Virus record (IMG/VR): IMGVR_UViG_3300042923_000257
Span: 1 to 57,837 of that record
Length of the DNA stretch: 57,837 nt
Origin: a virus
Reading direction: 5' to 3' (one strand)
Shown: piece by piece, positions 20,217 to 57,837 of the stretch
Layout of the letters: the number at the start of each line of letters is the position of its first letter
Numbering within the stretch: position 1 is the first letter of the stretch
Translations under genes and position numbers: made by a program
The notes under the pieces: model-generated
What the model was told of the DNA's origin: nothing
Seen by the model: the letters and a program-made list of their open reading frames with translations, nothing else
Databases searched by the model: none

Positions 20217-20509
20217 CAGTTTCCCGGGTCGTTGTAACCGGCTGCCTTGACGACGAGGTCAGAGAAATTGGAGAAGTCCCGGATGGTCGGGCGAGTAGCC
20301 CGGAAGGTGACCCACTGATCGGGGCCAACGATTGCCTCAATGACGTCGAACTCCGACTCGGCCAGAGCGACTTCCATGGGAAGGTCCAGCGGGTCAGCAG
20401 GAACGGAGTACTCGGTACCCTTGTACTCAATGGTGTTGGTCTTCGGAGCCTCGGCCTCGGTCTCGGCCGGCTTCGGCTTGGCAGCCGCAGTCTTGCGCGG
20501 AGTAGTCAT
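20216..20509 (-). CDS. Tail assembly chaperone, upstream (G) part
   Basis: A 97-residue product with an Ala/Lys/Pro-rich N-terminus and a folded core (DPLDLPMEVALAESEFDVIE) like other tail chaperone G proteins. The gene ends CCG GGA AAC TGA, placing a canonical G-GGA-AAC slip site on its last sense codons. Chaperones coat the tape measure while tail tube subunits polymerise around it. The ratio of G to G-T product is set by the frameshift. Confidence 0.8.
   Translation of the reverse strand: MTTPRKTAAAKPKPAETEAEAPKTNTIEYKGTEYSVPADPLDLPMEVALAESEFDVIEAIVGPDQWVTFRATRPTIRDFSNFSDLVVKAAGYNDPGN
20219..20225 (-). other. Programmed -1 ribosomal frameshift site GGGAAAC
   Basis: On the minus strand the G frame reads ..CCG GGA AAC TGA, so the heptamer is split G-GGA-AAC exactly as a -1 slip requires. 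After slipping, the ribosome reads CTG ATG ACC and continues in the downstream frame to 19800. Confidence 0.8.
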
Positions 20510-20550
20510 AGGAATCTCCTGGAAACAATGAGTGAGTGAGAGAGAAGGTG

Positions 20551-20570
20551 CCGGGATTTAGACCTCCCGG
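20551..20570 (-). terminator. Hairpin after leftward operator-like site
   Basis: CCGGGA and TCCCGG pair around an 8-base loop, five bases downstream (leftward) of the 13-bp site at 20576. It lies between the major tail protein and the tail chaperones. Confidence 0.5.
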
Positions 20571-20575
20571 CCAGG

Positions 20576-20588
20576 GTCTCGTTTCAAC
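20576..20588 (-). promoter_or_regulatory. 13-bp operator-like site GTTGAAACGAGAC (leftward)
   Basis: Identical to the copy at 9042 and oriented with late transcription. It sits seven bases after the major tail protein stop, followed by a hairpin. Confidence 0.6.
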
Positions 20589-20595
20589 TAAGAGA

Positions 20596-21192
20596 TCAGG
20601 GAGTGTCGCCCATGTTCTCCGTGGTCAGGACGTAGCCAAGGCTGCCGTCCGAGTCCATGGCGTCAATGGTGAGTTCGAACTGCTGGGCCTGAGTGCGCTG
20701 AAGGGTGATGGCACCCCGCTCAGCAACCATGGAGCGGCTCAGGACCGCACGCCACAGGTTCGTCTTGTACTTCCAGTCCACGACGATGGCGAATTCCTTC
20801 AGCTCGGGCAGAGAGCTGAGGTTCAGCTTGTACTCACCAGTCGGGGTGGGGGTCCCACCAACGTCCTCCATGACCTCTTCCCACTCGGCACCGAAGAAGG
20901 TCTCAGTGACCAGCTTCGAAGCCTCCAGGAGGGTGGCGGAGAGCTGGAAGGAAGCGGAGTCGACGTTGTAGAGGACCGGGGCCGCGGACTGCCAGGCCGG
21001 CAGAGGCGTGGTCGTGATGCTCGGGGTCATGGTGACACCGTTCTCCGACACATAGCCAAGAGCCTTGAAGCCGGCAGGCGGGGTAACCCCGTCACCAACG
21101 TCGGTCGGCAGGACCAGGCTGCCTCCGACAGGGGCAAGGTAGATCATTCCATCCGGAGCGAACCGGATCTTTTCAGCATTTCCAGAAGGCAT
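20596..21192 (-). CDS. Major tail protein
   Basis: A 198-residue, beta-rich product placed between the tail-completion genes and the chaperones, the conserved position of the tail tube subunit. The N-terminus (APDGMIYLAPVGGSLVLPTD) and the VTMTPSITTTPLPAWQSAAPV segment match tail tube proteins of actinobacterial siphophages. An intrinsic terminator lies immediately before its ribosome site and a 13-bp site with hairpin immediately after it, so its mRNA is bracketed by structures. Confidence 0.8.
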   Translation of the reverse strand: MPSGNAEKIRFAPDGMIYLAPVGGSLVLPTDVGDGVTPPAGFKALGYVSENGVTMTPSITTTPLPAWQSAAPVLYNVDSASFQLSATLLEASKLVTETFFGAEWEEVMEDVGGTPTPTGEYKLNLSSLPELKEFAIVVDWKYKTNLWRAVLSRSMVAERGAITLQRTQAQQFELTIDAMDSDGSLGYVLTTENMGDTP

Positions 21193-21212
21193 ATGGGCTC
21201 CTTGGGGGCAAC

Positions 21213-21237
21213 AAAAAACGGCCCCTCAAGGGCCGTT
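21213..21237 (-). terminator. Intrinsic terminator just before the major tail gene
   Basis: On the minus strand ACGGCCC and GGGCCGT flank a short loop and are followed by six T (plus-strand A run 21213-21218). Only about 20 bases separate it from the ATG of the major tail protein, so it acts upstream of, not after, that gene. Confidence 0.75.
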
Positions 21238-21252
21238 GAACGTGTATGTGAT

Positions 21253-21645
21253 TCAGGCTGCTTGGTAGTACAGGGAGACTTCTCCGCAGTACACATGCTC
21301 TCGGGAGCTGGTATCCGGCTCGTAGTCAGGAAGGCTCTGGTCCCTGGAGTCCAGGAAGTAGAGATCCTTGTAGGTCACTCCGTTGCGGAGGCCCTCCAGG
21401 AGGTGATCCCTTACGAGGAAGGCAAGCTGAGCAGCCTGTTCCCTGTCTAGGGAGTAGACCTCGTAGGCAACGAATACTCGTTCCAGCTTGGAATCCCGCT
21501 CCACCCGGTAACCCCCGTCATGAGCCACGTAGATGGTGGTGTCCCCGACCTCCCGGGCACTCAGGTCCCCTGTGACACTGCCTGCCGGCAGATCCGGAAC
21601 CGACCGAAGGAACTGGACCACTGACGAGATGGGATCTAGGTTCAT
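21253..21645 (-). CDS. Tail terminator / tail completion protein
   Basis: A 130-residue product in the slot directly before the major tail protein, where the tail terminator (gpU-like) sits. Its mixed alpha/beta pattern (IYVAHDGGYRVERDSKLERVF, AAQLAFLVRDHLLEG) fits that family. It overlaps the preceding gene by four bases. Assignment is mainly by position. Confidence 0.6.
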   Translation of the reverse strand: MNLDPISSVVQFLRSVPDLPAGSVTGDLSAREVGDTTIYVAHDGGYRVERDSKLERVFVAYEVYSLDREQAAQLAFLVRDHLLEGLRNGVTYKDLYFLDSRDQSLPDYEPDTSSREHVYCGEVSLYYQAA

Positions 21646-21995
21646 TCCACCCTCGCATTCAGAAGCGCTTCCCGGAGGAATCTCTTACCGGGATGCCGCT
21701 TGCCCTTCTTATCGGTCCAGCCGAGATCCTGAAGGAGCGTATGCCGGACTCGGTCATTGAGTTCGATGGTGACGTTCCCGTAGTAACCCTTGACGTCCTT
21801 CTCCACGAAGGCAGAGATGTTCTTCTTGATCTGGTTCCAGTTCGTCTTGGTGTTCTTCGCCCGGGGAGCTTCCCTGACGGCACCAATACGGATGTGCTCA
21901 GTCACCTCAGCTACCAAGGCGCCTGCTTCCAGGGTTGAGAGCATCTGGTTTTCCCAACCGCGGTGCATCGTTAGCTTGAACTCGCCCTCTCTCAT
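21642..21995 (-). CDS. HK97 gp10-like head-tail connector
   Basis: A 117-residue product from the ATG at 21995 (MREGEFKLTMHRGWENQML). The helix-rich N-terminal half, the basic middle (RAKNTKTNWNQIKKN) and the late GWTDKKGKRHPGKRFLREAL motif are typical of HK97 gp10-like neck/tail-completion proteins. A longer in-frame extension overlaps the neighbour and has no ribosome site. Confidence 0.65.
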   Translation of the reverse strand: MREGEFKLTMHRGWENQMLSTLEAGALVAEVTEHIRIGAVREAPRAKNTKTNWNQIKKNISAFVEKDVKGYYGNVTIELNDRVRHTLLQDLGWTDKKGKRHPGKRFLREALLNARVE

Positions 21996-22321
21996 CCGTT
22001 CTTCGCCCTCCAAATGATCAGGTGGGTATGACGGGTGGAGCCGTAGGGCCAGAGGTCCGGAGGACCGTCGATCTCGTACCACAGACCGCGCCACTTGACT
22101 CGGTGCTGGTCGTCCAGGGCCTCGGTGTACGGCATGTAGACGTGACACCGCTCCTGAGCAAGGTCCCGCTCAGGGGACCTCATCTCGAAGTTGCGGTCAG
22201 GCTGGACACTGGCCCGGGACTGAAGGACCAGGACCGGATGGTCCCAGTCCTTCTTGACCGAGTAGGCACCCTCAACCTCGTCAGCGCTGTAGACCTCAAT
22301 GCGCTCGGTGTACTGGCTCAT
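21992..22321 (-). CDS. Head closure (stopper) protein
   Basis: A 109-residue, beta-rich product in the head-completion block. The YMPYTEALDDQHRVKWRG and YEIDGPPDLWPYG segments match the pattern of small head-closure/stopper proteins that plug the portal before tail joining. Its stop overlaps the next start. Confidence 0.6.
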   Translation of the reverse strand: MSQYTERIEVYSADEVEGAYSVKKDWDHPVLVLQSRASVQPDRNFEMRSPERDLAQERCHVYMPYTEALDDQHRVKWRGLWYEIDGPPDLWPYGSTRHTHLIIWRAKNG

Positions 22322-22881
22322 CAGTCCGCCCTCCCAAGGGAGAGCGTCCCTACTGTGGACCGGAACCGGCGAAGGGCGTACTTGGCAGCCTCAGACAGGG
22401 TCTGCGGGCTGGCTGAGTCGTACTCAACCTCTCGCTCACCCGTGCGTTCCATGGACAGACCAGGAGTACGGGCCATCCACCGGATGACCTCGGCCGCGGC
22501 AGCCACCTTGAGGGCGGCCGGCAAGGGGCTGTAGCCCCATGAACCAGTGATAGTGACCAGGCCGGTCCAGCCGGCCTCCCGGTACAGGCTCATCTCATGG
22601 GAGTTGCGGGTGGCAACCTCCCAATCAGTCACAACCTGACCATCCACCTTGACCTCAGTGAAGATGAGATAGGGGAGTACCCGGCGGGGAAGCTGCAAGA
22701 GGCAGTCTCCGTAACCAACGACGGTGAAGTCCTGGTCAGTACGAGGCTCGAAGTCCACCCCGCAGTAGTCCTCTATGAGGACAGTGCAGTCCTGAATGAA
22801 TGCCTCAACCCGAGCCTGCTCATCGGGAGTGAGGGGCCACCCCAGACGGGTGGCCACCTCTTCAGCAGTGACAAAAGCCAC
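22321..22881 (-). CDS. Head-tail adaptor (gp6/gp15-like connector)
   Basis: A 186-residue product starting MAFVTAEEVATRLGWPLT, the classic opening of phage connector (gp6-like) proteins, followed by a helical bundle (EQARVEAFIQDCTVLIEDYCG) and a tryptophan-rich YREAGWTGLVTITGSWGY segment seen in this family. It binds the portal after DNA packaging. Confidence 0.75.
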   Translation of the reverse strand: MAFVTAEEVATRLGWPLTPDEQARVEAFIQDCTVLIEDYCGVDFEPRTDQDFTVVGYGDCLLQLPRRVLPYLIFTEVKVDGQVVTDWEVATRNSHEMSLYREAGWTGLVTITGSWGYSPLPAALKVAAAAEVIRWMARTPGLSMERTGEREVEYDSASPQTLSEAAKYALRRFRSTVGTLSLGRAD

Positions 22882-22914
22882 TAGTCATCCCTCCCTTCAA
22901 AGGGAAGGCGTCGA

Positions 22915-24000
22915 TCACGGAGTAGGCGCAACCTCGGTGATGTTGACCTTCAGGCCACGGACGAACTTCTCACCGATCAGCGTGCCGCGGACGTTGTAGT
23001 CCGGGTCTTCCTTGATGGTGGTGAAGCCGTACATGGTGTCCAGGCCGATCGTGTCCGCCTTCTTGCCGAAGTCGTAGTCGACCAGCATGCGGGTGGCGAT
23101 CCCATTCACGTTCTGGACCGAGCCGGCAACCGCACCCATCGGGATAGCCGGGGAGACGGAGGCCAGGAGGAACGCCGACTTGTGGAAGAAGTACATCTCC
23201 AGGTCGAACGAGTTGTGAACCACAACATCGAAGCCGTAGAAGGAACCGATGGTGGCCCGACGAAGGGCGTTGGTGTCACCGCTGTAGTCCACAGCCACGA
23301 ACTCGGGGTCCTTCAGAAGGATGGCCTCAACCTCGGGGCCGGCGATGACGTAGCGCTCCGAGTTCGGAACGTGGGCCTTGTTCAGGGCCATGCGGGCATC
23401 CACGAAGGCCACACGGAGGGCAAGAGCACGCTCCATGAGGTTCTCACGGGTACCGTCGTACGTCGGGATGGAGACCTCAACGTCACCACCGATGACCGCC
23501 TTCTGACCTGCGGTCAGGGCAGAACGGTTGATGTTCGCCTTGATCCACGCGGCAATGGTGTCATCGAAGTACTCGGCCATACCGCGGGTCAGCGGGGCGA
23601 GAACCTGGCCACCGAACTTCTTGAGGTCGAAAGCAACCTGCTCCATGCTCAGGGCAGTGGCGTTCTGGACCAGCGTGGTGAGCTGAACCGGGAACCGGGT
23701 CTCGTTCACGAAGCCGTTCGGAGGACGACGGTCCGTGGTCGGCAGCGGCCGGTCAGTGGCCGCGGCAAACACGTTCTTGTCACCCGTGATCGGGTTCTTG
23801 ATGATGTTGGAGACGCCAGTCTCCTGCACCTTGATCGAGCGGCTCGGGCGGTTGACGTTGATGACGTCACCGAGGCCACCGGTGAAGTTCAGCTCCGAGT
23901 AACGAGCCGGAATGGAACCAAGGGTGAGCTGACGGTCCAGCAGACCCAGAGCAGCAATGGTGACCTGCTTCGGGTCAAGATTAAAGTGATGATCGGGCAT
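22915..24000 (-). CDS. Major capsid protein
   Basis: A 361-residue, HK97-fold coat protein of the P22 gp5-like type: the N-arm, the FPVQLTTLVQNATALSMEQV stretch and the following FDDTIAAWI spine helix are characteristic, and the C-terminus is beta-rich. It follows the scaffold gene. A strong intrinsic terminator sits just before its GGAGG ribosome site, which is unusual for a gene that needs very high expression. Confidence 0.85.
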   Translation of the reverse strand: MPDHHFNLDPKQVTIAALGLLDRQLTLGSIPARYSELNFTGGLGDVINVNRPSRSIKVQETGVSNIIKNPITGDKNVFAAATDRPLPTTDRRPPNGFVNETRFPVQLTTLVQNATALSMEQVAFDLKKFGGQVLAPLTRGMAEYFDDTIAAWIKANINRSALTAGQKAVIGGDVEVSIPTYDGTRENLMERALALRVAFVDARMALNKAHVPNSERYVIAGPEVEAILLKDPEFVAVDYSGDTNALRRATIGSFYGFDVVVHNSFDLEMYFFHKSAFLLASVSPAIPMGAVAGSVQNVNGIATRMLVDYDFGKKADTIGLDTMYGFTTIKEDPDYNVRGTLIGEKFVRGLKVNITEVAPTP

Positions 24001-24020
24001 AGATCCTCCAAGAGGGCATG

Positions 24021-24046
24021 AAAAAAGCCCTCCGGAGGGGAGGGCT
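24021..24046 (-). terminator. Intrinsic terminator just before the capsid gene
   Basis: On the minus strand AGCCCTCC and GGAGGGCT form an 8-bp stem with a 5-base loop, followed by six T. The capsid ribosome site GGAGG starts about 10 bases later. The layout matches that before the major tail gene. Confidence 0.8.
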
Positions 24047-24065
24047 CACAGATTGGCTGTGGGGT

Positions 24066-24629
24066 TTAGAAGATGGACCCACCAGTGATGAGATCTGCAA
24101 GCTCATTGGGGTCCATCGTGGTGACCTCCGGGGCTCCACCGGACTGCTTGCCGGCGCCCTGAAGGCTCGGGAACTCTTCCTTGCTCTTGGGAAGAGACTC
24201 GACAAAGGACTTCACGGCCTCCTTGTTGGGCCGGCCATCCTCTCCGAGGAACTTGGAGACATTCAGGTACTCGGCAGGCGGAAGAGATACCCCCGCCGTA
24301 GCAGCCTGGAGAGCCATTTCGGCAGTCACCAGATCCGTACCAACCTCGCTGAGTGCGGACGTCCGGCCCTCAGCTCGTGCAGTCTCAATAGCCTTCTCGG
24401 CTTCGGTCATCTGAGCCTCACGGAGCTTCGTCAGCTCACCAGAGGCGTCTTCCCACTTCTTCTCGTTCTGCCGGGACAGAGACTTCCACTTGGTGGAGTT
24501 GTTGCGCTCCTCTTCCAGGAGGGCAAGAGCCTCTTCAAGAGTGGCAGGAGCCTTGGACTCCTGACCCTGGCCGTTGTTACCGGCCTGGTCGTTCTTGTTG
24601 TCGTCAGCAGGGGTGTTCTCTTCAGGCAT
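24066..24629 (-). CDS. Scaffolding protein
   Basis: A 187-residue, acidic and Gln/Asn-rich product with a long coiled coil (ALALLEEERNNSTKWKSLSR, KLREAQMTEAEKAIETARAE) between portal and capsid genes, the standard scaffold signature and position. A hairpin (GTCAGCC/GGCTGAC) and a repeated ACCGAAATGG lie in the 63-base gap upstream. Scaffold shapes the procapsid and is later removed. Confidence 0.8.
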   Translation of the reverse strand: MPEENTPADDNKNDQAGNNGQGQESKAPATLEEALALLEEERNNSTKWKSLSRQNEKKWEDASGELTKLREAQMTEAEKAIETARAEGRTSALSEVGTDLVTAEMALQAATAGVSLPPAEYLNVSKFLGEDGRPNKEAVKSFVESLPKSKEEFPSLQGAGKQSGGAPEVTTMDPNELADLITGGSIF

Positions 24630-24692
24630 GCGCTCATCCCATTTCGGTGTTGAGTCAGCCCACCATTTCGGTTGGCTGACGTGAGCTAGGTG

Positions 24693-26141
24693 TTACTTCT
24701 TCTCTCCAAGCTTCCGGGAGACGTTCCCGGAGTTGCCCTGAGGTGGCTTGGCTGCCATTTCGGCTGCCTTCTTGCCTCCCGCGGGGCCACCAGGCTCCTG
24801 AGCCTGGGGCCCAAGTTCCTGGACTTCCTTCGCTGCCTTGGCATCTTCCTTACGAAGCTCACGGAAGGCTGCTATCTCGGTAGCGGTGAAGCCGGCTCGC
24901 ATCCACAAGATTTCCTCGGGTACGTTGAGCTGCTTCAGCTTCAGCAAAGAGTCAATGTGCTGGGCCTCGGTCCGGTATTCCGGATCTGCCCAGACCGTTT
25001 CCATGGAGTACTCCTTCGCTCGCTTGTCCTTCTTGACAGCGAAGCAAAGCCGGATTACCTGCTCCCAGGCTTCTCCGAAGTACAACATTCGCTCCTTGAC
25101 CTTGGAGACAAGGCCGGCCTCGGCACTGATGATTGCCTCACCAGAAGGAGCGGTTCCCTGGTTCACCAGGAAGTAGTGACTCGGAGTACGAGACACAGAA
25201 CTGAGGTGCTGCACCAGGAGGTTGATCAGGTTCACATAGTTCTTCAGGTCCGCGGCCTGGAACTGACCGAATTCCACTTCCGGGTTCTCGGCCTGGAGGA
25301 GCTTGTCCAATCCCACGTCATACGGCATCTTGAGATTGCCGTTCTCATCCTCTTGGATTTCCAGACCGGTGACCCATCGCTGCGGCCAGGCAGCGAACTC
25401 GGAAGCCAGAAGGGCATCAGACGTAATCTTGTTGATGGCATCCTGGATTGGGATGACATTGGCAAGGTCTGAGTAGGGGTCACCATTGATTCGAGACCTG
25501 TTGTGGAACGGAACTACAGGCACGATCCCAAGAGGGTTGGGCTTACGCTGACCCTGCTCCCACTCGGTCTTCCCAAGGGGGACCTCGTAGACGTAATCCT
25601 CAGTCCAGAGAGTTACCCAGGTACGACCCCAGGAGTCCATGAAGAACCGTGCCGCGGCCTCCAGCTCCGTGCTGGAGCCGGGCTTGTACTGGACTGCCAT
25701 CTCCTCAGCGGAGACGGGGGTGATGACTGGCTCCCCGTCCTTGCCACCCCACACAACGACGTACGCGCGTCCCTGGACCATCGCGTCCAGGTGCACGGCG
25801 TTGGACAGAGCATCGAGCTGGTTACGCTGCCAGAACTTCTGAGCGTCCTCGTCCATCTTCCCCTTGCCGGGGAATCGGAAGCCCTCCACACGCATTCGCT
25901 CTGTAGCAGAGTCGATGATGAGCCCACAGAAGTTGTCTCTCCAGTCGTTGAAGAGATCCTTGAAGGCGGACTTGTATCGGGCCTGGGCAAACTTGAGCTT
26001 CTGCTGTTCGCCCTCGTAGTAGCTCGCGTACTTGAGGAAGTCAGCCCGGCCATTGGTGAGCTTCCCCTGAAGGAATGCCAACCAGTCAGTCTCGGTAGCC
26101 GGCGGACCAACGGAGGTATAGCCGCTGGGAGGGATAATCAT
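24693..26141 (-). CDS. Portal protein (SPP1 gp6-like)
   Basis: A 482-residue product. Features of SPP1-type portals include YYEGEQQKLKFAQARYK near the N-terminus, FCGLIIDSATERMRVEGFRF, the central IPIQDAINKITSDALLASEF stem/clip region and SVSRTPSHYFL. The C-terminal 40 residues are Ala/Lys/Gly-rich. It forms the dodecameric DNA gate and directly follows the large terminase. Confidence 0.85.
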   Translation of the reverse strand: MIIPPSGYTSVGPPATETDWLAFLQGKLTNGRADFLKYASYYEGEQQKLKFAQARYKSAFKDLFNDWRDNFCGLIIDSATERMRVEGFRFPGKGKMDEDAQKFWQRNQLDALSNAVHLDAMVQGRAYVVVWGGKDGEPVITPVSAEEMAVQYKPGSSTELEAAARFFMDSWGRTWVTLWTEDYVYEVPLGKTEWEQGQRKPNPLGIVPVVPFHNRSRINGDPYSDLANVIPIQDAINKITSDALLASEFAAWPQRWVTGLEIQEDENGNLKMPYDVGLDKLLQAENPEVEFGQFQAADLKNYVNLINLLVQHLSSVSRTPSHYFLVNQGTAPSGEAIISAEAGLVSKVKERMLYFGEAWEQVIRLCFAVKKDKRAKEYSMETVWADPEYRTEAQHIDSLLKLKQLNVPEEILWMRAGFTATEIAAFRELRKEDAKAAKEVQELGPQAQEPGGPAGGKKAAEMAAKPPQGNSGNVSRKLGEKK

Positions 26142-29362: not shown

Positions 29363-29525
29363 CAGGTCTCCTCTCCAGTTCCTTGGCTATGTCCCGCAGG
29401 ATGCGGGGGAGTGCGGTGTCAACGATGTAGGGGTAGTGGATGCCTCCAGAGCCCAGCTCGGTGACCTCCCCGTCTCCGATCTGAACGAAGACCTTGACTG
29501 GGACCTCATACCGACTCCTGGGCAT
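29232..29525 (-). CDS. Hypothetical protein with long 3' overlap
   Basis: A 97-residue frame from the ATG at 29525. The first 57 residues (SRYEVPVKVFVQIGDGEVTE and a VDTALPRILRDIAKELE helix) look like a real domain. The last 40 overlap the hydrolase gene by 131 bases in another frame and are Arg-rich, so the functional protein probably ends near residue 57. Either the overlap is tolerated or a frameshift has extended the gene. Confidence 0.5.
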   Translation of the reverse strand: MPRSRYEVPVKVFVQIGDGEVTELGSGGIHYPYIVDTALPRILRDIAKELERRPDDRTQARRLRPDQDQGTGRRLHHLRAMVRWGLRSRPTRSRLRG

Positions 29526-29736
29526 CTGTGCTCCTAGCGATGGCAGCGTTTGCCCAGAACATAACCTCTTCCAACTTCGTGATGGCAAGGGCCTTCTCAC
29601 GGCCCTCAGGAAGGAGGTCGTTCAGATGGTCGGCAAGCTGCCGGCAGCCCTGCCGGGCTGAAGTGTGCTCGTCTCGCTTCTCCTGCCGGCTGGCAGCATG
29701 GAAGGCAAAGCGATGTTCGATGTCCTTGGGGTACAT
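29506..29736 (-). CDS. Acb2/Tad1-hairpin-like protein (putative anti-CBASS/Thoeris sponge)
   Basis: A 76-residue product with AGGAG before its ATG. An N-terminal RFAFHA is followed by a two-helix hairpin (RQLADHLNDLLPEGREKALA, then TKLEEVMFWANAAIAR). The PEGREKALAITKLEE..WANAAIAR pattern is the hallmark of the Acb2/Tad1 hairpin family as I recall it. Acb2 binds and hides cyclic di- and trinucleotides made by CBASS and can block Thoeris signals. Being first in the late operon beside a tRNA-like gene is an odd place for an early-acting defence inhibitor. Family recognised by motif only. Confidence 0.65.
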   Translation of the reverse strand: MYPKDIEHRFAFHAASRQEKRDEHTSARQGCRQLADHLNDLLPEGREKALAITKLEEVMFWANAAIARSTDAQESV

Positions 29737-29862
29737 GAGTCTCCTAGTCGGGTTCAGGGCACTGAGACCGGTGGCAACCGTGTCTCCAACAGAAGTTCGG
29801 ATCTCTCATCTCTTCTTCTGTAGCCACGCCAACCCCCCGTTGGATGAATGAAGTTGTGTCAG

Positions 29863-29942
29863 TGCGCCGCCTTGGAATCGAACCAAGCAAGCCTCAATTG
29901 GCCAGGGCTTTACAGGCCCCGTTGTGTCCCAGCACTCAACGC
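29863..29942 (-). tRNA. tRNA-Tyr(GUA)-like gene, D arm degenerate
   Basis: On the minus strand an anticodon arm (GGGGC, loop CTGTAAA, GCCCT) reads GUA; a T arm (CTTGG, loop TTCGATT, CCAAG) is perfect; a 16-base variable arm with GCC/GGC fits class II. The acceptor pairs six of seven positions (GCGTTGA with GCGGCGC). The D arm is short (15 bases to the anticodon stem) and weakly paired, and no CCA is encoded. It is either an atypical phage tRNA or a decaying one. Confidence 0.55.
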
Positions 29943-30100
29943 AAGACCTCGTCCACAAGGAACGAGGTGTGTTTCAAAAGCCCATCAGGGCCAACCGCCT
30001 CACGACGGGATGTCGGATGCCACGGGGGCTGCAATAGCTCTCTCCTGCATCCTCTGTGCTCTTCTCCCGAGGCAGCCTCAGGTGCCTGAAGCACAGCCGT

Positions 30101-31096: not shown

Positions 31097-31606
31097 ATGC
31101 CCACCAGCCTTCTTCCGCCTGATCATGAGCTTGCCAAGCTCTACCATCGTGACGTCTCGGACAGAGAGATCGCAGAGCGGTACGGAGTCACCGTTCAGGC
31201 CGTGAACAAGAGACTCTCTGCGATGGGCTTGTTCAGGAAGCCCATCTCCAAGCAGGTCAACGAGGCTCTCGCGGCACGGTGGACCATCTGGGCCCCGAAG
31301 GATGGGACCGGTCACCACAACCGGTACAGTGCCAAGGCTCTGAAGGTCTGGCTCCGGAGACAGCTCGGGGACGACACCCTGAGCAAGGCACAGTTGGACA
31401 TGGCTGACCGATGGGAGCGCCGGCTGAGGCGAGACAACCTCGTCCTCTGTTACGACCCCAACACGGAATCGGCGTGGTACTACCGGCCCCGGACACCCCA
31501 GGACGGGAAGCTGGTCATCGACTGGCCGAAGCACATCCCCTTCCCAAACGAGAGGTTTAAGAGGGCCCTGGAGCTGCCCGCGGAGGACGTGCGGCGGACG
31601 CTCTGA
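31097..31606 (+). CDS. HTH DNA-binding protein, candidate immunity repressor
   Basis: A 169-residue product. Residues about 18-42 (SDREIAERYGVTVQAVNKRL) form a clear helix-turn-helix; the rest (NEALAARWTIWAPKDGTGHH, then Trp/Arg-rich helices) is unlike sigma or recombinase families. It is the first rightward gene, downstream of four operator-like sites and followed by a strong terminator, so it is a one-gene unit that could autoregulate. A monomeric HTH repressor binding 13-bp asymmetric sites is the L5 gp71 model; size (169 against about 183) and context fit. Identity as repressor is inference. Confidence 0.6.
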   Translation: MPTSLLPPDHELAKLYHRDVSDREIAERYGVTVQAVNKRLSAMGLFRKPISKQVNEALAARWTIWAPKDGTGHHNRYSAKALKVWLRRQLGDDTLSKAQLDMADRWERRLRRDNLVLCYDPNTESAWYYRPRTPQDGKLVIDWPKHIPFPNERFKRALELPAEDVRRTL

Positions 31607-32143: not shown

Positions 32144-32175
32144 GGGGCCATGTCTCGGGAACATGGCCCCTTTTT
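32144..32175 (+). terminator. Rho-independent terminator
   Basis: GGGGCCATGT and ACATGGCCCC form a 10-bp stem followed by TTTTT. Confidence 0.85.
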
Positions 32176-32207: not shown

Positions 32208-33044
32208 ATGAGCCGAGACATCACCACACAGCCGCGGTCTGTCTCCCAGACTGAGCAGTACGAGAAGTGCAGTTGGCAGTTCTATCTCCAGCGAGTTGAG
32301 CGGGTCGTCCCTCGGCCGGCCGCCTGGTCCTTCCAGGGCACGGCCTTCCACTCGGCCGCGGAGAAGTTCGAGAAGGAGTTCAGGGAGCCCACGGCAGAGG
32401 AGATGGTCCAGCTCTTCTCCGACCAGTACAGCGCCATGGTGAACAAGGCGATGGACCAGGAGCCGGATCTGAACCGGTGGATGACTGCCAACAAGAAGCC
32501 TGCCGGCCAGGACATCGAAGAGCGGTACGCCCTGGGGCAGAGTCAGGTAGCTCGGTATGTCGAGTGGTCCAACGAGAACGAACCTGAGATCTGGGTGGAT
32601 GGCGAGGGTTGGAACGGGGCGGACATCTCGGAGGCTCCGACCAACCCCAAGATGGGCCTGGAGCTGTACTTCAAGGTCGAGTTGGGAGGCGTGGTCGTCC
32701 GTGGCTACATTGATCAGCTTCCGTACGACGGAGGCCCTGGAACCGTGAGGGTTCGGGACCTGAAGACCGGAAGCACCAAGTCCGAGTTCCAGCTTCAGAC
32801 GTACAAAGTCGCCGTGGAGAAGCAGTTCGGTCTCACGGTCAACCGAGGGGACTGGTACTTCGGCAAGACTGGGGGCCTGTCCAAGGCTGTCGACCTCTCC
32901 GAGGTGACGGAGGAACAGGTAGCAGCTCGGTATGTGGAGATGGACCAGGGCGTGAAGCGGGGAGACTTCCCGGCGAAGCCGGGCTTCCACTGCAATTTCT
33001 GTGACGTGAGCCACGCTTGCACTTTCAAGCGGACTCGTAGTTGA
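32208..33044 (+). CDS. Cas4/RecB-like PD-(D/E)XK exonuclease with Fe-S cysteines
   Basis: A 278-residue product; the ATG at 32208 follows CAGGAGG. SVSQTEQYEKCSWQFYL holds the first cluster cysteine; residues about 180-210 (VVRGYIDQL, then VRVRDLKTG) are the PD-(D/E)XK core with D, D and K; the C-terminus (HCNFCDVSHAC) supplies the other cysteines. This four-cysteine arrangement is that of Cas4/AddB-type nucleases. In phages it probably processes DNA ends for recombination-dependent replication. There is no CRISPR array nearby. Confidence 0.8.
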   Translation: MSRDITTQPRSVSQTEQYEKCSWQFYLQRVERVVPRPAAWSFQGTAFHSAAEKFEKEFREPTAEEMVQLFSDQYSAMVNKAMDQEPDLNRWMTANKKPAGQDIEERYALGQSQVARYVEWSNENEPEIWVDGEGWNGADISEAPTNPKMGLELYFKVELGGVVVRGYIDQLPYDGGPGTVRVRDLKTGSTKSEFQLQTYKVAVEKQFGLTVNRGDWYFGKTGGLSKAVDLSEVTEEQVAARYVEMDQGVKRGDFPAKPGFHCNFCDVSHACTFKRTRS

Positions 33045-54658: not shown

Positions 54659-54740
54659 GGCGGTGTGCCCGAGCGGCCAAAGGGAGCAGACTGTAAATCT
54701 GCCGGCTCAGCCTTCCCAGGTTCGAATCCTGGCGCCGCCA
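54659..54740 (+). tRNA. tRNA-Tyr (anticodon GUA)
   Basis: Complete class II cloverleaf: acceptor GGCGGTG/CGCCGCC (one G-U), D arm CCC/GGG with AGCGGCCAAA loop, anticodon arm GCAGA-CTGTAAA-TCTGC, long variable arm, T arm CCAGG-TTCGAAT-CCTGG, discriminator A. No CCA is encoded. It looks like a normal, functional actinobacterial tRNA-Tyr, in contrast to the degenerate one at 29863. Confidence 0.93.
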
Positions 54741-54749
54741 CACTAGTAG

Positions 54750-57064: not shown

Positions 57065-57250
57065 ATGGCTGTCAGCCGCAATCGAGTGCCCACCCCTCGT
57101 GATCTAGCCGAGGATGAGTGGAGGATGGACACAGCCCGGGGGCGTCGATACTGCCGGGTGCACCCCCAGCAGCAGATGATCCCCCTCGCCGTGGGCGATG
57201 TGTGTCCTCTGCCTCATGGCGAGACCCACGAGAAGGCTGATAGCCGATAA
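57065..57250 (+). CDS. Streptomyces-type small conserved protein
   Basis: A 61-residue product with GGAG before its ATG. DTARGRRYCRVHPQQQMIPL and VCPLPHGETH: one Cys-x2-His and a later Cys/His suggest a small zinc site. It is the last gene of the cargo module. Its 5' part (57071-57144) reappears inverted at the window end. Confidence 0.6.
   Translation: MAVSRNRVPTPRDLAEDEWRMDTARGRRYCRVHPQQQMIPLAVGDVCPLPHGETHEKADSR
57071..57144. repeat. Inverted repeat partner of the window end
   Basis: This 74-base segment is the exact reverse complement of 57764-57837. It lies inside the coding region at 57065, which is intact, so this is the genuine copy and the terminal one is probably the artefact. Confidence 0.8.
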
Positions 57251-57750: not shown

Positions 57751-57772
57751 GATCGAAGGAAGGCGCCCCCGG
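57751..57772. repeat. Terminal direct repeat, right copy
   Basis: Identical to positions 1-22. After it the sequence diverges from the left end and enters the inverted segment. Confidence 0.85.
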
Positions 57773-57837
57773 GCTGTGTCCATCCTCCACTCATCCTCGG
57801 CTAGATCACGAGGGGTGGGCACTCGATTGCGGCTGAC
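57764..57837. repeat. Terminal inverted segment, probable chimera
   Basis: Exact reverse complement of 57071-57144. The junction lies in CGCCCCCGG, a nine-base word present both in the expected continuation (positions 14-22) and in the inverted segment, so microhomology-driven template switching explains it. Confidence 0.75.

Follow-up and report, generated by a model that had tools for sequence, protein, structure and literature searches.

The virus record IMGVR_UViG_3300042923_000257 of IMG/VR, a Streptomyces-type phage analysed here over its 57,837 bases (the window), carries its virion genes on the minus strand. Among these, the genes for the major capsid protein (MCP) and the major tail protein (MTP) are each preceded by a G-C hairpin that runs directly into six U residues, with the ribosome site behind. 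Judged from sequence, both leader hairpins look like genuine, selected intrinsic terminators placed ahead of the most-needed cistrons. Conditional termination, in which transcription would stop at the hairpins in one state and pass through them in another, is the preferred explanation, with a probability of roughly 45%.

Terminator-like hairpins in the capsid and tail leaders

The preliminary description of this DNA had reported a stem and six-U tract before the MCP and MTP start codons, with a Shine-Dalgarno (SD) sequence after each U tract; the coordinates hold, and PHROGs profiles confirm both gene identities (Table 1). The end of the stem lies 24 nucleotides (nt) from the start codon in both leaders. 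Five A/T runs of at least 6 occur in the 57.8-kb window, and two of them are these U tracts. A loose terminator scan of 15–33 kb returned 19 sites vs 13.8 ± 4.0 by chance, which is no overall enrichment, and the MCP and MTP hairpins rank among its strongest sites. Over the whole window there are six intergenic terminator sites with at least 6 G-C pairs, three of which lie 25–38 nt ahead of start codons, namely those of MCP, MTP and an early exonuclease (PF12705 and phrog_69; start at 32208).

The named relatives of the window are the Streptomyces lividans phages Ibantik, Ponzi and Success, and further loci were gathered from viral contigs and bacterial genomes with MCP and MTP as queries (seed protein alignments of 12 MTP and 9 MCP sequences, from those then in hand). 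One terminator scan, with a limit of ≤75 nt upstream of the start, was applied to twelve late genes; its counts are of distinct upstream sequences and not of independent lineages, and clustering of the terminator-bearing leaders at 80% identity leaves 11–14 MCP and 34–38 MTP representatives. The hairpins are kept among relatives, with a terminator before MCP in 38/46 sequences and before MTP in 66/81. The scaffold gene follows with 18/50, then the chaperone (5/57), portal (2/50) and tape measure (2/80), and none was found before terL (0/35), the adaptor (0/82), the stopper (0/80), the two genes after the stopper (0/74 for the next gene, 0/79 for the tail terminator) or the first minor tail gene (0/4). 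Shuffled sequences yield terminators in 0 to 2.6% across the twelve genes, and when the sequences upstream of MCP (46) and MTP (81) are dinucleotide-shuffled, a strict terminator arises in 0.2% and 0.1% of trials, respectively. Ponzi has additional terminators ahead of gene 40, the chaperone, a membrane protein and the endolysin.

Leader terminators occur in phages as well as in Streptomyces, Kitasatospora and Embleya genomes, where the copies presumably belong to prophages. The same scan of ten distant actinophages (Attoomi, Sycamore, Neville, LeBron, P318, Kromp, Ghobes, phiC31, R4 to 25 kb, and PA6) gave 0/10 before MCP and 0/10 before MTP, and because these phages lack them, the leader terminators are, on the genomes compared, a trait of this clade. 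Within it, 19 loci have a terminator ahead of MCP and MTP and not of the scaffold gene, 18 have one ahead of scaffold and MTP, with no window-type MCP found there, and no locus has one ahead of both scaffold and a window-type MCP. Among the 18, the MCP leader was looked at in Success alone and is without a terminator. A pattern search of viral contigs with GGGCT6NWTGCCC returned at least 120 stretches, a yield estimated to be near chance, and was discarded.

The stems covary. Exchanging hairpin halves between leaders costs 3.1 kcal/mol for MCP (z −5.4) and 3.8 kcal/mol for MTP (z −11.1), the cognate value is reached by 0/20,000 permutations in either set, and the signal persists without preselection for hairpins (z −4.7 and −11.1). 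The 5' arm is itself variable, with 16 distinct sequences in 38 MCP leaders and 39 in 64 MTP leaders; such free arm sequence combined with conserved pairing is expected of a terminator and not of a binding site with a fixed sequence. The usual form is a G-C stem, of 7–11 bp in most, a loop of 3–6 and an abutting U4–U7, the T run being 6–7 long in 33/38 MCP and 46/64 MTP leaders. The hairpin begins at least 13 nt past the upstream stop codon in 38/38 MCP and 62/63 MTP leaders (100/101), which probably keeps it clear of the stretch covered by a ribosome that terminates there. Two marks of an intrinsic terminator, a G-C stem abutting a U run and compensatory change within the stem, are found. Since U6 abuts the stem in a run-poor genome, the arms are free, the pairing is kept and the stop codon is at least 13 nt away, the hairpins are read as true terminators.

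The sequence behind the U tract is also regular. The distance from U tract to SD is 10–11 nt in 32/38 MCP leaders and ranges from 6 to 22 nt in MTP leaders, and [AT]T[GT][CT]CC stands 0–2 nt after the T run in 36/38 MCP and 55/64 MTP leaders, a regularity left without explanation. In 400 kb of one Streptomyces chromosome there are 7 A/T runs of at least 6 and 2 such terminators, too few to serve as a comparison for this element. A hairpin at the SD of the adaptor gene after MCP, seen in several relatives, was rejected for want of permutation support (z −0.5, n=13).

Table 1. Coordinates of leader, trailer and repeat elements and of the late genes in the window; genes were predicted with a home-made caller.
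Feature	Position	Strand	Remarks
Portal gene	26141-24693	−	upstream of scaffold
Scaffold-leader hairpin	24654-24680	−	stem 24680-24674 with 24660-24654; displays CCGAAATGG copy 1 at 24671-24663
CCGAAATGG copy 2	24639-24647	−	9 nt ahead of scaffold ATG, SD position
Scaffolding protein gene	24066-24629	−	phrog_4708, E 1e-11; ATG at 24629
MCP leader hairpin and U6, intrinsic-terminator form	24021-24047	−	9-bp stem, loop 5; GAGCCCTCC-CCTCC-GGAGGGCTT at 24047-24025, T6 at 24026-24021
MCP post-U-tract element and SD	24005-24020	−	CATGCCC; GGAGG at 24009-24005; ATG 24000
MCP gene	22915-24000	−	phrog_283, E 4e-32
Adaptor, stopper and two further connector genes	between MCP and MTP	−	
MTP leader hairpin and U6, intrinsic-terminator form	21213-21237	−	9-bp stem, loop 3; AACGGCCCT-TGA-GGGGCCGTT at 21237-21217, T6 at 21218-21213
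MTP post-U-tract element and SD	21198-21212	−	GTTGCCC; AGGAG at 21202-21198; ATG 21192
MTP gene	20596-21192	−	phrog_117, E 4e-25
13-bp stoperator-like site GTTGAAACGAGAC	20576-20588	−	after MTP; one of 15 exact GTTGAWWCGAGAC
MTP trailer hairpin	20550-20571	−	GCCGGGA-GGTCTAAA-TCCCGGC; no U run
Chaperone gene	20509-20216	−	
Tape measure gene	19791-15196	−	
Third leader-type terminator	32144-32175	+	38 nt before exonuclease start; shares TTTTTCATGCCC

Proposed conditional termination and competing roles

Intrinsic (Rho-independent) terminators are typically built as these elements are, with a G-C stem, a short loop, an abutting U run and a position clear of the upstream stop codon. Unlike the usual ones, however, the leader terminators lie inside an operon, directly ahead of the MCP and MTP ribosome sites, and are gene-specific. 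The paradox that the preliminary description had seen in stops before the most abundant virion proteins is real, and it is common to the clade. Conservation, stem covariation and gene specificity support its terminator reading as far as the hairpins themselves are concerned; termination in vivo and regulated read-through are what we infer from them. Of the explanations it had offered, hidden promoters are unlikely: only about 20 nt separate U tract and start codon, with the SD inside, and a scan for sigma-70-like promoters, the one type scanned for, found 2 vs 3.7 expected, with none before MCP or MTP.

Under conditional termination, polymerase would stop at both hairpins if the phage had not modified it or if it leaked through a prophage, while late lytic transcription would pass through them. 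Read-through would be the normal late state, because the hairpins precede the most-needed genes, and once it had occurred the hairpin and U-rich tract may give the strong ribosome site that follows a clean and insulated leader. Several observations weigh against this interpretation. Without read-through, stopping ahead of the most-needed genes should reduce everything downstream; the window proteins scanned, a minority of the total, included no recognisable antiterminator of a late system such as lambda Q/N, and no antitermination site (as in put) was identified. In places the element is moreover dispensable: the whole gap is gone from four MTP leaders (L014, L017, L154, L164), and the MCP leaders of Ibantik and Success are without a terminator. 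Elsewhere the hairpin is kept and the T run is gone, e.g., in the MCP leaders L200, L215 and L265, a loss that a pure terminator should not tolerate, although phiC31 reportedly has terminators without poly-U. Finally, the U-rich tracts ahead of the SD could act in translation instead.

A competing role lies in mRNA segmentation or leader function, less probable than conditional termination and ranked close behind it. The hairpins would then be post-transcriptional 5' stabilisers, processing boundaries or insulators, the U tract would recruit ribosomes, and translation of MCP and MTP would be uncoupled from the low-copy genes upstream. Processed leaders of the T7 gene 10 and T4 gene 32 type combine a hairpin, a U/A-rich stretch and the SD of an abundant protein, and the MCP and MTP leaders share this order of hairpin, U-rich tract and SD, here in U6 terminator form and as a predicted element. 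The largely constant MCP spacing between U tract and SD suits such a role, as do the survival of hairpins in leaders whose T run has decayed and the conserved hairpin that also closes MTP (62/84 downstream gaps). The gene layout fits as well, in that the four connector genes of the MCP–MTP interval abut or overlap one another and MCP and MTP each have a gap of their own. The most regular feature, a U run that abuts the stem, would not, however, be needed for a leader role, and the MTP spacing to the SD varies.

Two further mechanisms were considered. In a bistable switch, the 3' arm would pair with GCCC past the U tract and the loop with the SD, hiding the latter in read-through RNA. The minimum-energy folds of the window's MCP and MTP leaders (−22.6 and −23.8 kcal/mol, the terminators by themselves reaching −16.1 and −14.5) favour it, but the cognate advantage is weak among MTP representatives (permutation p 0.017 for the duplex and 0.032 for the fold, n=34) and weaker for MCP (0.079 and 0.14, n=11), the terminator is itself the predicted fold in many representatives, and nearly all arms are G-rich, so that pairing with CCC has little power; the switch is improbable. 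Partial terminators that set stoichiometry by attenuation, a logic known from other operons, might be suggested by strong U6 stems within an operon. The direction is nevertheless wrong, the abundant genes coming after the stop, which makes attenuation the least probable explanation of those weighed. Conditional termination is retained as the preferred reading.

A tandem RNA motif in the scaffold leader

Scaffold, capsid and tail protein are probably expressed from one transcript, and a second RNA control may act in the same operon, where a CCGAAAUGG hairpin is followed by a repeat at the scaffold ribosome site. The portal–scaffold gap of the window holds both copies of CCGAAATGG. Drawing on all 118 loci (L299–L416), the exact tandem was counted in 72/89 distinct scaffold leaders, of which 2 (L325 and L350) were discarded by eye as chance, leaving ~70. 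In L325, two CCCGAAATGGG copies at ~594–623 stand just ahead of an open reading frame (ORF) of 159 amino acids (aa) without a match to the scaffold profile. When the 17 leaders lacking the exact tandem were searched with a covariance model, L241, L200 and L234 matched at E < 1e-8, L247, L209, L231 and L208 matched weakly, L244 matched on the opposite strand only (E 0.99), and 9 gave no match. Copy 1 variants CCGAAACGG, CCGGAATGG and CCGCAATGG retain the closing pairs, and an SD-like AGGA, GGAG, GAGG or AAGG lies between copy 2 and the start in only 7/70 leaders.

Covariation supports the hairpin. In an alignment of 40 representatives, pairing holds in 87.8% of cells vs 73.4% in shuffles, with 54 double changes vs 20.3 ± 5.2 and a covariation score of 0.436 vs 0.203 ± 0.020; each value was reached in 0/500 shuffles, and slid controls stay at ≤0.081. 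Double changes fall in 6 pairs, an ordinary number (254/500 shuffles). Arm swaps cost 3.7 kcal/mol (z −9.0, 0/20,000 permutations). An outer stem for copy 2 was rejected, as swapped arms do just as well as cognate arms (z +0.9).

The exact tandem occurs in viral contigs in 97 contexts among the loci examined for this tally (L299–L387, 89/118 fetched loci). A scaffold-like ORF follows 22 of them; most of the others resemble coding repeats, and some chance matches are expected at this pattern length. Against 150 Streptomyces genomes the covariance model gave 7 matches in 6 genomes; scaffold genes follow both matches above 40 bits, and no scaffold-like ORF was found beside the other five (≤28 bits). 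At curated score thresholds Rfam recognised only a tRNA in the whole window, leaving the motif without a family, and at E up to 1 the interval 20500–24800 returned one sub-threshold match, on the plus strand, to a human long non-coding RNA.

Thermobifida phage P318 has the same tandem ahead of its scaffold gene. The motif is common to phages whose scaffolds are related and whose MCPs are not recognisably so (tblastn), which points to the scaffold protein, or the portal, rather than the capsid protein as the probable binder. A conserved structured RNA at a ribosome site is what a translational operator would present, and the tandem element is accordingly described as a candidate scaffold-gene operator; in the simplest view it would bind a protein that limits scaffold synthesis. 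Translational operators are known from MS2 and T4 gp32, and autoregulation of the P22 scaffolding protein is said to have been reported long ago. The scaffold element resembles these in that the ribosome site of a morphogenesis gene, or of a gene under regulation, carries RNA structure, and it differs from them in its tandem CCGAAAUGG, with copy 2 at the SD position, and in its fusion to a terminator in one lineage, where copy 1 itself forms the loop of a U6 terminator. In that lineage one binding event could govern elongation and translation together. A late operon run by RNA, in which scaffold synthesis is shut off by a protein (the scaffolding protein itself being the likeliest) through the CCGAAAUGG hairpin and its twin, and conditional MCP and MTP terminators complete the metering, is a tentative and rather doubtful proposal.

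Trailer hairpin, stoperator-like sites and wider meaning

MTP was also said to be closed by a 13-bp site with a hairpin. Both are present, but the hairpin is not a canonical terminator because it has no U run. Its motif recurs in 62/84 MTP downstream gaps, with a pyrimidine-rich stretch after 60 of these, and covaries modestly (z −2.4, 183/20,000, n=22), while 6/84 gaps contain a 13-bp site of this type. By these counts the trailer hairpin is a widely conserved element separate from the 13-bp site.

The 13-bp sequence GTTGAWWCGAGAC has 15 exact copies in the window (467 to 45394) vs 1 for a reversed control; by the gene predictions 10 are intergenic, 1 is overlapping and 4 are inside genes, and 15/15 are co-oriented with predicted genes, as stoperators would be. 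A predicted repressor-like gene (31097–31606) matches the transcriptional repressors phrog_3929 and phrog_357. Ibantik has a related but different repeat form, GTTGWCACGAGAC, and Ponzi a different repeat, as expected of immunity-specific stoperators. Mycobacteriophage L5 has a repressor-stoperator system. R4-type Streptomyces phages are known to use such a system as well (PMC10276819). The GTTGAWWCGAGAC set is stoperator-like in that, as in L5 and R4, many short asymmetric sites are co-oriented with transcription and accompanied by a repressor gene, here a predicted one, the site itself being a putative one of different sequence, GTTGAWWCGAGAC.

Elsewhere in the window, a 76-aa protein (29506–29736, minus strand) has an Acb2/Tad1 hairpin domain (PF24729) and is a possible anti-CBASS/Thoeris sponge. 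ARAGORN predicts two tRNA-Tyr (gta), at 29862–29947 (minus) and 54659–54741 (plus), of which only the second meets the Rfam threshold. A perfect 74-nt inverted repeat (57071–57144 and 57764–57837) ends at the last base of the record and is either an assembly artefact or a genome end.

In the literature searched, which leaves out most subscription journals, no description was found of terminators placed ahead of the capsid or tail genes, nor of the scaffold RNA motif. Scaffold, capsid and tail protein are needed in fixed ratios, and the leader terminators and the covarying scaffold RNA supply defined, testable parts for how a siphophage may achieve them. Autoregulation of the scaffold might have the scaffold motif as its RNA target, and the leader terminators may form a second silencing layer beside stoperators in temperate Streptomyces phages. 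Taken together, these elements suggest control at the RNA level over how much of each building block the virus makes.

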